A DNA stretch of 64,000 bases, from contig NZ_CP017305.1 of the NCBI RefSeq assembly GCF_001747405.1, forward strand, positions 2,560,001-2,624,000, read 5' to 3'. Source of the stretch: Chlorobaculum limnaeum. Its GTDB lineage: Bacteria > Bacteroidota > Chlorobiia > Chlorobiales > Chlorobiaceae. This document shows, one piece after another, positions 32,117 to 41,463 of this stretch. The notes below the pieces were generated by a model, which was given only the letters and a program-made list of their open reading frames with translations, had not been told where the DNA came from and ran no database searches. Position 1 is the stretch's first letter; each line of letters opens with the position of its first letter. The translations under genes and the position numbers were made by a program.

Positions 32117-32310
32117 TTTGTTGTGGGGATGATTATCGCTTTTGGGTTGTCTTGGATGCAAAGTCAAGTCCAATTTTTCGGTTGGTATTGTCTGATTTTT
32201 GATTCCTGAAGCGAGATATATGCCTTTGCTATAAGCATATATGATTTTATATGTTTTACGGTTGTAAAATCAAAAAAAAACGTAATATCACTCACAAGTT
32301 CTTTGTGACG

Positions 32311-32551
32311 TTCCGGTGCCGGATGATTCCATCCGGGCAAAAGGGAAGTGCGTGAGAATCGCACACTGTACCCGCAACTGTAAGATGTTATACCGCAAGG
32401 TGATATGGGAGCTCTACCTTGTTCACTGCTGCGATTTGTGCCTGTCCACTGCGCCGACCTCTGATTACCACGGGGAAAGCTTGGGAAGGATGATGCACTA
32501 AAAAGCGTTGTGCGAGCGACGCAGCCGTCGGAGTCAGGAAACCTGCCGGAA
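32311..32551 (+). ncRNA. Cobalamin riboswitch, no gene directly downstream
   Basis: Contains the cobalamin aptamer landmarks in order. P1 arm TTCCGG (32311-32316) pairs with CCGGAA (32546-32551). GGTGCC with a small GGATG/CATCC stem and GGGCAAAAGGGAA come next, then a core TGCGTGAGAATCGCACACTG, the conserved CCCGCAACTGTAAG, a long variable arm and finally GGAGTCAGGAAACCTGCC. Known members sense adenosylcobalamin and repress B12 uptake or synthesis genes. Here about 640 bases separate it from the next gene, a small DUF2188 protein with a different kind of promoter region. The regulated gene therefore appears to be missing. Confidence 0.88.
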
Positions 32552-32845
32552 TGAAAGGCGTCGAGAGGCTTCGGGAAGAGAGCTTGGCGAACCTGTCAAT
32601 GATCAGTGATAGTGCAAACTATCAAAGTCTGATCCGTTATTCTATGGGGAGAATTTTTCGATTCGCACTAAGAGTCTGAGAGATGGAGTGTGTTACCACG
32701 TTGCACTTTACGCGAATAATATTGGGCATAATGTGAGTAAAAAACACAGGATAGCTGCAACTACCCTGTGCAATTAATCCTAAATGACAAAGGAGGTGGT
32801 AACTACAAGGCACACCGTTGATTTAGCGATCATAAGAAATTATTC

Positions 32846-37253: not shown

Positions 37254-38942
37254 TCAGCTCCGCCTGAAGCGATTCAGGCCGCTGACAATCGCCTTGATCG
37301 AGGCGAGGCTGATGTTCGAGTCGATGCCCGAACCGCAGACCAGCGCGCCGTCATCGAAGGCGAGACGGATGTAGGCGATGGCGAGCGCGTCGGAGCTGTG
37401 GCCGATGGCGTGCTCCGTGTACTCGTCCACGTGGAAGCCGATGCCGATATGGCTCACCATGCCGCGCACGAAGGCGTCGAGCGGCCCGTTGCCCTTGGCC
37501 TTGAAGCTGAACTCACCATCGGGGCCGACCATCGAGGAGCTGATGATCGTCGCCACCTCGTCGTTCTTCTCCGGGTCTTCATCGCTCCAGCTGATCGTGC
37601 ACTTTTTCATGAGGTACGGCTCCGAGCAGGCGATATACTCTTTCTGGAACAGCTCGTGAATCTGCTCCGCCGAAAGCTCGTCGCCGGTACGGTCGGTCAC
37701 CGTCTGCACGACGCCGCCAAAATCGGGCTGCATCCACTTGGGAATCTGGATGCCGTACTCCTTTTCGAGCAGATAGGCAATGCCCCCCTTGCCCGACTGG
37801 CTGTTGATCCGGACGATGGCCTCGTAGTTGCACCCCACATCTTCGGGATCGATCGGCAGATAGGGCACGTCCCACACGCCGTCGGCAGCCCGCTGGTGCG
37901 CCTTCATCCCCTTGCTGATCGCGTCCTGGTGCGAACCGGAGAAGGCCGTGTAGACCAGATCTCCCGAGTAGGGATGGCGCGGATGCACCGTCATGCGGGT
38001 GCAGCGGCTGTAGACCTCCCTGACGTGCGGCAGGTTGGAAAAGTCCAGCTTCGGATCGATGCCCTGCGTCATCAGGTTCAGCGCCATGATGATGATGTCC
38101 ATGTTGCCACACCGCTCGCCGTTGCCGAACAGGGCACCTTCGATGCGATCGGCTCCGGCCATCACCGCCAGCTCGGAGGTCGCCACCGCCGTGCCGCGAT
38201 CGTTGTGGGCGTGCACGCTGAAGAGCACCGCGTCACGATCCTTGATGTGGCGGCAGAACCACTCGATGCGGTCGGCATAGACGTTCGGCGTCGAAAGCTC
38301 GACCGTCGAGGGCAGGTTCAGGATCACCTTGTTGGTGGCCGATGCGCCCCACTCGTCCATCACCGCATGGCACACGTCGAGCGCGTAGTCCAGCTCGGTG
38401 CCGGTAAAGCTTTCGGGGCTGTACTCGAAGCGGATACCCGGATTGCCGCTTTCTTCCTTCAGCTCGCGAACCAGGCGCGTACCGGCCACGGCGATGGAGA
38501 TGATCTCCTCGCGGCTCATGCGGAACACCTGTTCTCGCTGCTGACGCGAGGTGGAGTTGTACAGGTGCACAATGGCATTCTTCGCCCCCTTGATTGCCTC
38601 GAAGGTGCGGCGGATGAGGTGCTCGCGCGACTGCGTCAGCACCTGGATGCTCACGTCGTCGGGGATGAGATTGTTCTCGATCAGCTTGCGCACGAAGGCG
38701 AACTCCGTGGCTGACGCGGAAGGGAAGCCCACCTCGATCTCCCTGAAGCCGACAGAGACCAGCAGTTTGAAAAATTCCACCTTCTCATCGACGCTCATCG
38801 GAATCGGCAGCGCCTGGTTGCCGTCGCGAAGATCGACGCTGCACCAGATCGGCGCTTTGGTGATAGTCTTGTCGGGCCAGGTTCTGTCTTTCAGCCCGAC
38901 CGTCGGATAGGATGCATATTTCTTATAATTCATTGTACTCAT
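37254..38942 (-). CDS. leuA: 2-isopropylmalate synthase
   Basis: First committed step of leucine synthesis: acetyl-CoA plus 2-oxoisovalerate. The TIM-barrel domain (residues about 30-310) has WCSVDLRDGNQAL at the catalytic start, IEVGFPSASATEF, and the metal-binding FSVHAHNDRGTAVA. The C-terminal LeuA dimer/allosteric domain (about 430-560) is expected to bind leucine. The 562-residue length fits the long-form LeuA. The upstream minus-strand leader carries a leucine-rich peptide and a terminator, indicating attenuation. Confidence 0.95.
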   Translation of the reverse strand: MSTMNYKKYASYPTVGLKDRTWPDKTITKAPIWCSVDLRDGNQALPIPMSVDEKVEFFKLLVSVGFREIEVGFPSASATEFAFVRKLIENNLIPDDVSIQVLTQSREHLIRRTFEAIKGAKNAIVHLYNSTSRQQREQVFRMSREEIISIAVAGTRLVRELKEESGNPGIRFEYSPESFTGTELDYALDVCHAVMDEWGASATNKVILNLPSTVELSTPNVYADRIEWFCRHIKDRDAVLFSVHAHNDRGTAVATSELAVMAGADRIEGALFGNGERCGNMDIIIMALNLMTQGIDPKLDFSNLPHVREVYSRCTRMTVHPRHPYSGDLVYTAFSGSHQDAISKGMKAHQRAADGVWDVPYLPIDPEDVGCNYEAIVRINSQSGKGGIAYLLEKEYGIQIPKWMQPDFGGVVQTVTDRTGDELSAEQIHELFQKEYIACSEPYLMKKCTISWSDEDPEKNDEVATIISSSMVGPDGEFSFKAKGNGPLDAFVRGMVSHIGIGFHVDEYTEHAIGHSSDALAIAYIRLAFDDGALVCGSGIDSNISLASIKAIVSGLNRFRRS

Positions 38943-38983
38943 GACTGAGTCTCCATTTAAATCGCTTGATAGTAAAGTCTCTT

Positions 38984-39023
38984 AACGAAAAAAAGCCGCT
39001 TACCCTGAGAGGATTGCGGCTTT
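38984..39023 (-). terminator. Attenuator terminator upstream of leuA
   Basis: On the minus strand AAAGCCGC (39016-39023) and GCGGCTTT (38992-38999) form a stem followed by a T-run, about 45 bases before leuA. Loop bases AGGGTAAG (38999-39006 complement) can instead pair with CTTACCCT inside the leader peptide gene (39096-39103). CTCAGG pairs with CCTGAG at 39069-39074. Mutually exclusive structures of this type are the hallmark of transcription attenuation. Confidence 0.8.
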
Positions 39024-39052
39024 GAAAATCGGATTCCGTGCAGTCAACGAAA

Positions 39053-39130
39053 CTACAATGCGCTCCCCCTCAGGCAAGTAAGGCCCGTTAGCGATAGGGT
39101 AAGACGCAGCATGTTGTTGACCGTGTTCAT
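39053..39130 (-). CDS. leuL: Leucine-rich leader peptide (leu attenuator)
   Basis: A 25-codon reading frame from ATG 39130 to TAG 39053 encodes MNTVNNMLRLTLSLTGLT and then CLRGSAL. Seven of 25 residues are leucine, at positions 8, 10, 12, 14, 17, 20 and 25, and two use the codon CTA. It ends about 30 bases before the terminator stem in front of leuA. When charged tRNA-Leu is scarce, a ribosome stalled here should prevent the terminator from forming. The Leu content, position and pairing segments make chance unlikely. No strong ribosome binding site is visible. Confidence 0.8.
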   Translation of the reverse strand: MNTVNNMLRLTLSLTGLTCLRGSAL

Positions 39131-39298
39131 ACAAGATAATGTACCGTTAAAATCGGCTGTACGAAAAGTTGGGATAATATAAACAATTCTTTCCCGTCTG
39201 CAACGCCCTTGCGCCAGCCGATGGTGATGATGCGGGCATCTGGCAAAGGAACAGCGAACCGGTCCCGGAGGTTCCCCGCCGCGCCCTGCACGCCCGCG

Positions 39299-39736
39299 TC
39301 AGCGAGACGGAACCGCCATGAAGCGCAGTGTCTCACGCCCCAGGCGGTCATACATTGTCAACCGGCGACCTCTGACGACATAGCTGTCAGCCTTGCGCAG
39401 CGCCGCGATGAACGCCTGTTCCCGCAACATCACCGCCGGCTGGCACATCATCTTCGACGAAGCGATCGCGCCGAAACGGATACTGCCCGGCGAGTGAATG
39501 AACGAGCCGCTGATCTGGTTACAGCCGCCCGAACCAACCATTTTGCGCGAAGCGTACAGAATAATATGCATGTCCCGCCTCTGCCCTCGAATGAACTCCG
39601 CTTTCCGTCCATCAATCTCCTCCACCCGCCACCAGCTACTGAACAGCGTCGAAGTCTTGGCATCCGGCTGCGTCGCAGAACGAGGCGAGCAAGCGGCAAG
39701 AGTTGCAATAAGAACAATGAAGAAAAATCGGATCAT
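39299..39736 (-). CDS. META-domain (HslJ-like) lipoprotein
   Basis: Probable outer-envelope lipoprotein of 145 residues. The signal peptide FFFIVLIATLAAC has a lipobox LAAC. A META domain follows: WWRVEEIDGRKAEF, MVGSGGCNQISGSFIH, SIRFGAIASSKMMC, AFIAALRKADSYVVRGRRLTMYD. Related HslJ proteins are linked to heat or novobiocin resistance, but a function is not known here. The ATG at 39736 gives the signal peptide; a longer open frame upstream does not. Confidence 0.82.
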   Translation of the reverse strand: MIRFFFIVLIATLAACSPRSATQPDAKTSTLFSSWWRVEEIDGRKAEFIRGQRRDMHIILYASRKMVGSGGCNQISGSFIHSPGSIRFGAIASSKMMCQPAVMLREQAFIAALRKADSYVVRGRRLTMYDRLGRETLRFMAVPSR

Positions 39737-39857
39737 GACGAAATATATCTGAATCGTGAATGTAATCTGTGGTTCCGAATGCAACATATAACAAGGAAAA
39801 AAGCTTTCGGGTTCACTCCTGAATCAGGGTCAAGCCCGGCACACCCAGAATCGCGAA

Positions 39858-41027
39858 CTATTCGCTTGCAGCATTCCGATGAGCGCTCAAGGCTCCAATC
39901 TCGCCAAGAATGCTCATCAACGGCGTTCCGGCCAAATGGTCAGAAAACGCGAACCCTTCCTTCCCAAGCTCTTCAAGCACCCCGTATGCCGTGCTGATGG
40001 CCGCCCTCTCAGAAGCGCACAGAAAAGGGCCGGGCATATGATAGTCACCCGTGGCATGAAAGTTCGTGCAGCCACACCAGTACATGCAGTACGGAAACAA
40101 GGAACAACTGGCGCACGCCTCGTGCCCGCTCCGCTCCGAGTCGTGGCTGCAACGGCGCGACAATGGCGTGTCATCATGAACATTGCCCAGGCAATGCGTC
40201 CCTCCATCACCTGATCTGATAAGGCGCTCGCAGGGATAGATATTGCCAGACGGTGAAAAAGCAAACTCACCTTTCCCCATCCGGCACTTCTCGGCAGGCT
40301 CGTAGCCACCGCGAAGCAGCACCACAATTTTGCTGTCAACGAGACTGATATGCATTGGCGAGCCTGCGCGGTAAAACTCAATATACCGCCGTCCAATCCG
40401 GTCGTACACCTCTGGAAGCAGCAAAGCATCCGCATCGCTCCAGGTCGCCGTGATGTCGGGGTTGAGATAGAGGTTTCTGACGCCCAAATCCGCGAAGTAA
40501 TCGATTATTTTCGGCAGGGCGGTCAAGCTCTCCGGACGGTAAACCGCGTTGACGGGCATAAAAGGAAAAAAGCGCAGGGCTTCCTGTATGGAAGAAGAGA
40601 CTTGCGCAGAGCTGCCGCTCCCGTCCGGGAATACTCTCGACCGATCCTGAATCTCCGGCGGCCCGTCGCAACTGATGCCGATCGAAACGCCGTATCGCTC
40701 GAGCTTCCGGGCCGCCTCTTCGGTGAAAAGCGTACCGTTCGAAACCACGGAAAACAGCACCTTTCTGCTGCCGAACTCATCGTGCTTTTTTACGAGATCG
40801 ACGATTCGTCCAAGCAGATCCAGTTCAAGCAACGGCTCACCGCCGAAAAACCCGATATCCATCGTTTCCCTGGGAGGCGTCGCCCGGTACATGAAACCGA
40901 CGATCCGCGCGGCGGTCTCCAGGCTCATGGTCAACGGGTTTTTCTCGATGTAACAGTACCGGCAGGCAAGATTGCACTGCTGGGTAATCGCAAGAGTGTA
41001 TTTCATTGGCAACAGGGAAGGAATCAT
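39858..41027 (-). CDS. Radical SAM/SPASM peptide- or protein-modifying enzyme
   Basis: The radical SAM cluster motif CNLACRYC lies just after the start, followed by IGFFGGEPLLELDLL. The C-terminal SPASM region has extra cysteines for auxiliary clusters (CRMGKGEFAFSPSGNIYPCERLI; CASCSLFPYCMYWCGC). Such enzymes usually modify ribosomal peptides or mature enzymes (anaerobic sulfatase or quinohemoprotein maturases). The ATGs at 41027 and 41006 are both plausible; the frame is open to 41144 but then overlaps the neighbour. The small upstream protein is the natural candidate partner. Confidence 0.82.
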   Translation of the reverse strand: MIPSLLPMKYTLAITQQCNLACRYCYIEKNPLTMSLETAARIVGFMYRATPPRETMDIGFFGGEPLLELDLLGRIVDLVKKHDEFGSRKVLFSVVSNGTLFTEEAARKLERYGVSIGISCDGPPEIQDRSRVFPDGSGSSAQVSSSIQEALRFFPFMPVNAVYRPESLTALPKIIDYFADLGVRNLYLNPDITATWSDADALLLPEVYDRIGRRYIEFYRAGSPMHISLVDSKIVVLLRGGYEPAEKCRMGKGEFAFSPSGNIYPCERLIRSGDGGTHCLGNVHDDTPLSRRCSHDSERSGHEACASCSLFPYCMYWCGCTNFHATGDYHMPGPFLCASERAAISTAYGVLEELGKEGFAFSDHLAGTPLMSILGEIGALSAHRNAASE

Positions 41028-41073
41028 CTGCGGAAAGCGTTTTGACGCCTTCCGCAGGTATTGGAAGAACAGC

Positions 41074-41463
41074 TCAGTGAAGCGCGCTTGCCGCTTCAGC
41101 GACATCCAGGAGGTTATCGAAACTGATCGCATTGGCACCCGCAATCTGCTTGCTTAACTCTTTCATCACAGGAGCGGCAAACGTCTGCCATTGTTTGGCA
41201 TCGAGCAGGTAAAGTTCCCCTTTGTAATGAAGATGCGGAGTCTTTCGGCCACCACGAATGTTGATGATGTAATCGATGCTTACAGCCTTTCCCGTTCCAA
41301 CAGTCGGTTTTGCATCGACACGAAGGGATTCGTGCGCTACCGGTTTAATCTTGTTGGCCTTGATGAACTCGCCGATGGCCGCCTCCTTCACGATCCAGAA
41401 ATCGGCAGGAATGCCGATCCGCCACCTCAGGTTCTCGATCATAGATGCTGATAATTCTGCCAT
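41074..41463 (-). CDS. Unknown protein beside a radical SAM enzyme
   Basis: 129 residues from the ATG at 41463 (MAELSASMIENLRWRIGIP). The middle contains IRGGRKTPHLHYKGELYLLDAKQWQTFAAPVMKEL. There is no Cys-rich, leader-core or membrane pattern. The gene ends about 47 bases before the radical SAM gene on the same strand, so the two are probably co-transcribed. A substrate or accessory of that enzyme is possible, but the length and lack of a clear core peptide make a classical RiPP precursor uncertain. I do not recognise the family. Confidence 0.65.
   Translation of the reverse strand: MAELSASMIENLRWRIGIPADFWIVKEAAIGEFIKANKIKPVAHESLRVDAKPTVGTGKAVSIDYIINIRGGRKTPHLHYKGELYLLDAKQWQTFAAPVMKELSKQIAGANAISFDNLLDVAEAASALH

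Follow-up and report, generated by a model that had tools for sequence, protein, structure and literature searches.

The leuA gene of a 64,000-nucleotide stretch of Chlorobaculum limnaeum DNA, here termed the window, is in our judgment preceded by a classical ribosome-mediated transcription attenuator, a reading that we hold with high confidence. Green sulfur bacteria thus very probably switch on leucine synthesis when a lack of leucine stalls a ribosome, just as E. coli does. The parts of this device that emerge from the comparison of related sequences are a leader frame with conserved Leu codons and a marked enrichment in CTA, a terminator, an alternative helix and a promoter motif. The window belongs to a 2.8 Mb genome comprising a single contig, and its leuA has its nearest named relatives in Chlorobaculum. 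The product of this gene, a member of the long PRK03739 family, scores 853 bits against the NCBIfam 2-isopropylmalate synthase profile, whose cut-off is 455. Along the minus strand transcription would pass in order through a promoter-like motif, the leader frame, 29 nt of spacer, a hairpin with a T run and finally leuA (Table 1). Further upstream of leuA, at 39858-41144 on the same strand, the window also encodes a radical SAM/SPASM protein that is closest to the PapB ranthipeptide maturase family, albeit with a score below the cut-off.

Table 1. Features of the leuA locus, in order of transcription, with positions in the window
Feature	Position	Strand	Basis
Predicted sigma-70-type promoter: -35 TTGCAG (39198-39203), 16-nt spacer, -10 TATATT (39176-39181)	39176..39203	-	sequence and relatives
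Leader peptide gene, 25 codons, MNTVNNMLRLTLSLTGLTCLRGSAL, stop TAG	39053..39130	-	ORF; homologues in relatives
Helix P1 5' arm GGTCAAC, leader codons 3-6	39116..39122	-	pairs with 39042-39048 in the minimum-free-energy fold
Putative control codons: Leu codons 8, 10, 12 and 14, with CTA at 12 (39095-39097) and 14 (39089-39091)	39089..39109	-	CTA enrichment; synonymous variety
CCTGAGGGGG, the 5' arm of the antiterminator, shared with leader codons 19-22 and coding for the conserved C-terminal peptide segment	39065..39074	-	duplex and alignment
Helix P1 3' arm GTTGACT, directly after the leader stop codon	39042..39048	-	fold and alignment
Antiterminator 3' arm TCCTCTCAGG, within the terminator loop	39004..39013	-	duplex and alignment
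Intrinsic terminator: stem 39016-39023 / 38992-38999, T run 38988-38994	38988..39023	-	sequence; conserved
leuA Shine-Dalgarno sequence GGAG	38951..38954	-	sequence; SD-like 4-mer before leuA in 65/70 relatives
leuA, 2-isopropylmalate synthase of 562 aa, the predicted target of the regulation	37254..38942	-	NCBIfam profile

The leucine-rich leader frame and its start

The first-pass annotation of this DNA had described a frame of 25 codons, seven of them for Leu (CTA in two cases), lying before a T-tailed hairpin and leuA, and all of these statements agree with the sequence. With Leu at 9.8% locally, a frame of 25 codons would contain at least seven Leu by chance with p of about 0.009, and conservation among relatives argues for a Leu-rich leader far more strongly than this value. 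Among 74 distinct Chlorobiaceae leuA upstream regions gathered for the comparison, 70 contain an ATG-started Leu-rich leader. The four from which none was recovered comprise one that is cut by a contig end (L008), two that keep the terminator (L071 and L084) and one with neither leader nor terminator (L079). One of the two that keep the terminator, L084 / L114, comes from a Chlorobium chlorochromatii-like MAG (G022).

Leu accounts for 27% of the residues of the leaders, compared with 9% and 6% when the two alternative frames are read, and when the leaders are aligned on their stop codons it is most frequent from -20 to -12. Each of the Leu columns at -14, -13 and -12 is written with four to six different synonymous codons, indicating that selection acts on the amino acid. 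CTA makes up 84 of the 513 Leu codons of the leaders (16.4%) as against 9 of 2514 (0.4%) in the leuA genes of the same genomes, where it is the rarest Leu codon; this amounts to a 40-fold enrichment, and 45 of the 84 leader CTA codons cluster at -14, -13 and -12. In the window the two CTA codons occupy -14 and -12, and no Leu codon follows them ahead of the switch point seen in the ribosome simulation described below. Outside the Leu run the peptide varies freely, save for a conserved C-terminus. The frame is hence of the kind expected in an attenuator, being short, translated-looking and rich in codons for the pathway's own amino acid.

One feature that we counted against an attenuator is the Shine-Dalgarno sequence of the leader, which is missing in 66 of 70 genomes: an SD-like 4-mer precedes the leader ATG in just four, and the leuA genes of the same genomes have one in 65 of 70. 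Such a sequence is the usual, though not the sole, sign of ribosome loading, and the retention of Leu through synonymous codons in the alignment argues for a translated leader. One possibility, admittedly speculative, is that the CU-rich Leu codons would capture a Shine-Dalgarno sequence by base pairing. Upstream of the leader the motif TTG[CA][AT]-N14..20-TAT[ATC]TT is found in 52 of 70 relatives, with about 1% expected from shuffles, and where it is present its -10 element mostly lies 38-50 nt ahead of the leader ATG. This conserved motif is predicted to be a promoter placed upstream of the leader frame. The first-pass annotation had named two observations as incompatible with its reading, namely a transcription start downstream of position 39000 and a failure of the Leu codons and stem pairing to be conserved; the predicted promoter lies on the other side of the leader frame, and both the Leu codons and the pairing are conserved in close as well as distant relatives.

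Mutually exclusive RNA structures and the modelled ribosome

The terminator consists of AAAGCCGC, a 16-nt intervening segment and GCGGCTTT followed by TTTT, and ends 49 nt before leuA. Our mechanical terminator scan overlooked this hairpin because its loop exceeds the 8-nt limit of the scan. It was nevertheless recovered in nearly all regions, 88.4% of its cells are paired in the alignment of relatives, and an intrinsic terminator stands between the leader and the first structural gene. As for the alternative structure, two pairings had originally been proposed. Of these, CCTGAG:CTCAGG is real and forms part of a 10-bp helix CCUGAGGGGG:UCCUCUCAGG. The other, CTTACCCT:AGGGTAAG, is present in the window but not conserved; since CTTACCCT occurs in only 3 of 19 aligned Chlorobaculum leaders it is probably incidental, and we rejected it as the working antiterminator. 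That role belongs instead to the helix of CCTGAGGGGG, which extends into the terminator's 5' arm.

Nearly every leader-bearing region allows the last part of its leader frame to pair with the terminator loop and 5' arm. The Chlorobaculum version is CCTGAGGGGG:TCCTCTCAGG, and Chlorobium has a longer one, such as CTCTAAGGGGAGGTGCGTTTT with AAAGCCGCC..CCTCTTAGGG. The duplex of the window has a computed energy of -23.0 kcal/mol and reaches on into the terminator 5' arm at 39014-39023. Over 69 relatives 80.9% of antiterminator cells are paired, as against 46-63% in slid versions, a control that tends to favor a structure derived from a single aligned sequence, and double-changed cells number 42 against 25.4 in shuffles. 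Cognate duplexes are stronger than non-cognate ones (a result equalled in 3 of 10,000 permutations), with -19.5 kcal/mol against -15.2 in shuffles. On the leuA tree, compensatory changes falling on the same branch number seven, whereas random re-pairing gives a mean of 2.7 (15 of 2000). Tree-based covariation taken alone is only moderate, however, because the version slid by +2 reaches six. The leader peptides end in RGGAF or RGSAL because it is the RNA pairing, rather than the peptide, that is conserved.

A further helix, P1, joins the start of the leader frame to the segment after the leader stop codon. It appears in the minimum-free-energy fold of the window as GGTCAAC:GTTGACT and has a Chlorobium equivalent AACGAAC:GTTCGTT, with 83.8% of cells paired. 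The whole leader of the window folds better than its dinucleotide shuffles (z = -2.17). Consensus folding of the alignment returned the terminator only, because the terminator and the alternative structure are mutually exclusive.

We modelled the switch by stepping a ribosome footprint codon by codon along the window leader and folding the remaining RNA. With the simulated ribosome on codons 8-14 the terminator has a probability of about 0.00-0.01 and the antiterminator of about 0.97, while with the ribosome at the stop codon, or with none at all, the terminator probability is about 1.0. When full-length equilibrium folding was extended to 70 leaders, 16 of them flipped in this way, against 1.8% in the control. 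Equilibrium folding of the full-length RNA invariably prefers the terminator in most Chlorobium species, which means that antitermination in them must be kinetic; because terminators of such stability make the equilibrium test uninformative, we turned to the nascent transcript. At the stage when the 3' arm has yet to be transcribed, the terminator 5' arm has a family-wide mean probability of upstream pairing of 0.74 with the ribosome on the Leu run and of 0.36 with it at the stop codon; a control with shuffled leader codons stays flat at 0.48. Comparison and modelling are the two lines that point to a mutually exclusive antiterminator freed by a stall on the control codons.

On this model RNA polymerase would start about 39 nt ahead of the leader frame and a ribosome would translate the Leu-rich leader. 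Scarcity of Leu-tRNA would stall the ribosome within the run of Leu codons 8-14, with the rare CTA codons 12 and 14 as the chief stalling sites, leaving CCTGAGGGGG, just ahead, to pair with the terminator loop and 5' arm; this pairing would block the terminator and allow leuA to be transcribed. With plentiful leucine the ribosome would reach the stop codon and cover CCTGAGGGGG, whereupon the terminator would form and transcription would end some 49 nt before leuA. If no ribosome loads, P1 and the pairing inside it would hold CCTGAGGGGG, making termination the default. By its anatomy the locus belongs with the attenuators, and its predicted function comes from sequence and models; it is on this footing that we infer that the leader is translated, that ribosomes stall on it, that transcription terminates and that the system responds to leucine.

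Distribution in Chlorobiaceae and alternative explanations

A covariance model composed of P1 and the terminator was searched in the 394 genomes of the phylum set. Strong matches (E below 1e-4) were obtained at leuA in 79 of 86 Chlorobiaceae genomes, along with one weak match; the strong ones adjoin leuA, usually one per genome. Weak matches outside Chlorobiaceae, the best with E of about 1e-5, were taken for generic terminators and set aside. Among the Chlorobiaceae genomes with no match, G062 and G031 have a tRNA-Asn gene in place of the leader and keep the terminator, G085 has unrelated sequence, G081 ends at a contig edge, and in G056 and G082 no orthologous leuA was found. In two species (L061 and L069) the leader is kept and a tRNA-Asn gene stands immediately before it, and in two others (L071 and L112) such a gene occupies the place of the leader, the terminator being kept; these cases form an apparent series of promoter capture and loss of attenuation. 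The conservation of leader, terminator and alternative helix across Chlorobiaceae supports the classical attenuation design suggested in the first-pass annotation.

The same comparison bears on simpler accounts of the locus. It is very improbable that the hairpin is merely a constitutive terminator of the upstream gene (39299-39787), with a chance short frame beside it and the leuA promoter located after the hairpin. That gene does share the strand of leuA, and a weak promoter-like match does follow the hairpin at 38932-38961, but this match overlaps the leuA start codon and a conserved promoter motif sits between the upstream gene and the leader. Moreover, the nearest upstream frame varies in family and strand across genomes while leader and terminator stay, so that the hairpin is not simply a neighbor's terminator, and conservation of both the Leu codons and the antiterminator argues against a chance frame. 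Precedents can be cited for a leader that acts by translation or reinitiation, or through its peptide in trans, with the hairpin presenting only a mild block: trans-acting leader peptides exist, as in peTrpL (PMC7298713), leader genes may enhance downstream translation (PMC4833913), and the LEU element of actinobacterial leuA has no terminator and mutations that are inconsistent with attenuation (PMC1262725). In the window, however, some 110 nt that include a strong T-tailed hairpin separate the leader stop codon from leuA, and the leader peptide is free to vary outside the Leu run, the conserved C-terminus being accounted for by the RNA pairing; we consider this alternative highly unlikely.

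Control of the terminator by a protein or a leucine-binding riboswitch, with the leader frame incidental, is a further reading to which we give very little credence. Helix P1 and the family-wide conservation of the RNA could look like an aptamer, but there is neither an Rfam family match nor a conserved unpaired core, and Leu kept via synonymous codons together with the 40-fold CTA enrichment is a signal readable by translation alone. The Rfam search of the whole window returned only a tRNA and a cobalamin riboswitch (RF00174, 73 bits, at 32297-32564 on the plus strand), both located away from the leader, with no match to the leader at the gathering score; even at E up to 10 the leader retrieved nothing relevant, including from the Leu_leader and T-box families.

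Relation to other leaders and significance

No attenuator was recognized in the trpE, hisG and leuS upstream regions of the window genome. At ilvD we observed a second leader frame conserved across Chlorobiaceae, both in the same genome (C1:1768152, L115) and in relatives (L121-L160). It is mostly 40-75 codons long and has an Ile/Val/Leu-rich end, such as LLSGILLTVSVPLVHVRIIVA; in Chlorobaculum conserved GCCTTTCCCAAG and CTTCGGGACAGGC segments come after it. Its appearance is that of an ilv attenuator, but no standard terminator was obvious in the ilvD leader regions.

The leuA locus resembles the leuL system of Salmonella typhimurium and E. coli in having a short Leu-rich frame, CUA control codons, an antiterminator and a T-tailed terminator before leuA. 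According to Carter et al. 1986, as cited in PMC1183508, changing three CUA codons to CUG in S. typhimurium made regulation less sensitive. The case described here differs in lying in another phylum and lacking a match to an Rfam leader family, in its leuA being of the long PRK03739 family with ilvD about 0.8 Mb away in the genome, and in its leader having no Shine-Dalgarno sequence and bearing an antiterminator arm inside its coding end. With the actinobacterial LEU element it shares a run of leucine codons in a leader frame upstream of leuA; that element, however, is a pseudoknot that pairs the leucine codon run with the leuA Shine-Dalgarno box and has no obvious terminator, whose mutations are inconsistent with classical attenuation (PMC1262725), whereas the Chlorobi locus has both an intrinsic terminator and an antiterminator. 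The ilv-leu attenuator of Staphylococcus aureus, which has genetic support, similarly combines a leader rich in branched-chain amino acids with a downstream terminator and an alternative antiterminator, but it precedes ilvD, has a ribosome binding site and is predicted to form its antiterminator with the poly-U tail (PMC5794164), unlike that of Chlorobi, which pairs with the terminator's 5' arm. The first-pass annotation did not know of such a system as established for Chlorobi. The open literature searched contains no report of a Chlorobi leuA attenuator; as far as checked, this is a classical leader-peptide attenuator in a phylum new for it.

More tentatively, and with less than even confidence, we suggest that translation-coupled attenuation might be general for the branched-chain genes of green sulfur bacteria (leuA and, through a separate leader rich in Ile, Val and Leu, ilvD), with leaders regularly started without a Shine-Dalgarno sequence. 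If so, RNA polymerase and the leading ribosome would be coupled in this phylum and leader initiation would follow a route unlike that of enterobacteria. The leuA locus itself extends the textbook leader-peptide attenuator to Chlorobiaceae and offers a complete, directly testable model, Chlorobaculum tepidum TLS being open to genetic manipulation. Its CTA bias repeats the codon choice of the enterobacterial leu leader and supports the view that control codons are chosen for starvation sensitivity. A working example would be evidence for transcription-translation coupling in these bacteria close enough that a stalled ribosome controls RNA polymerase.
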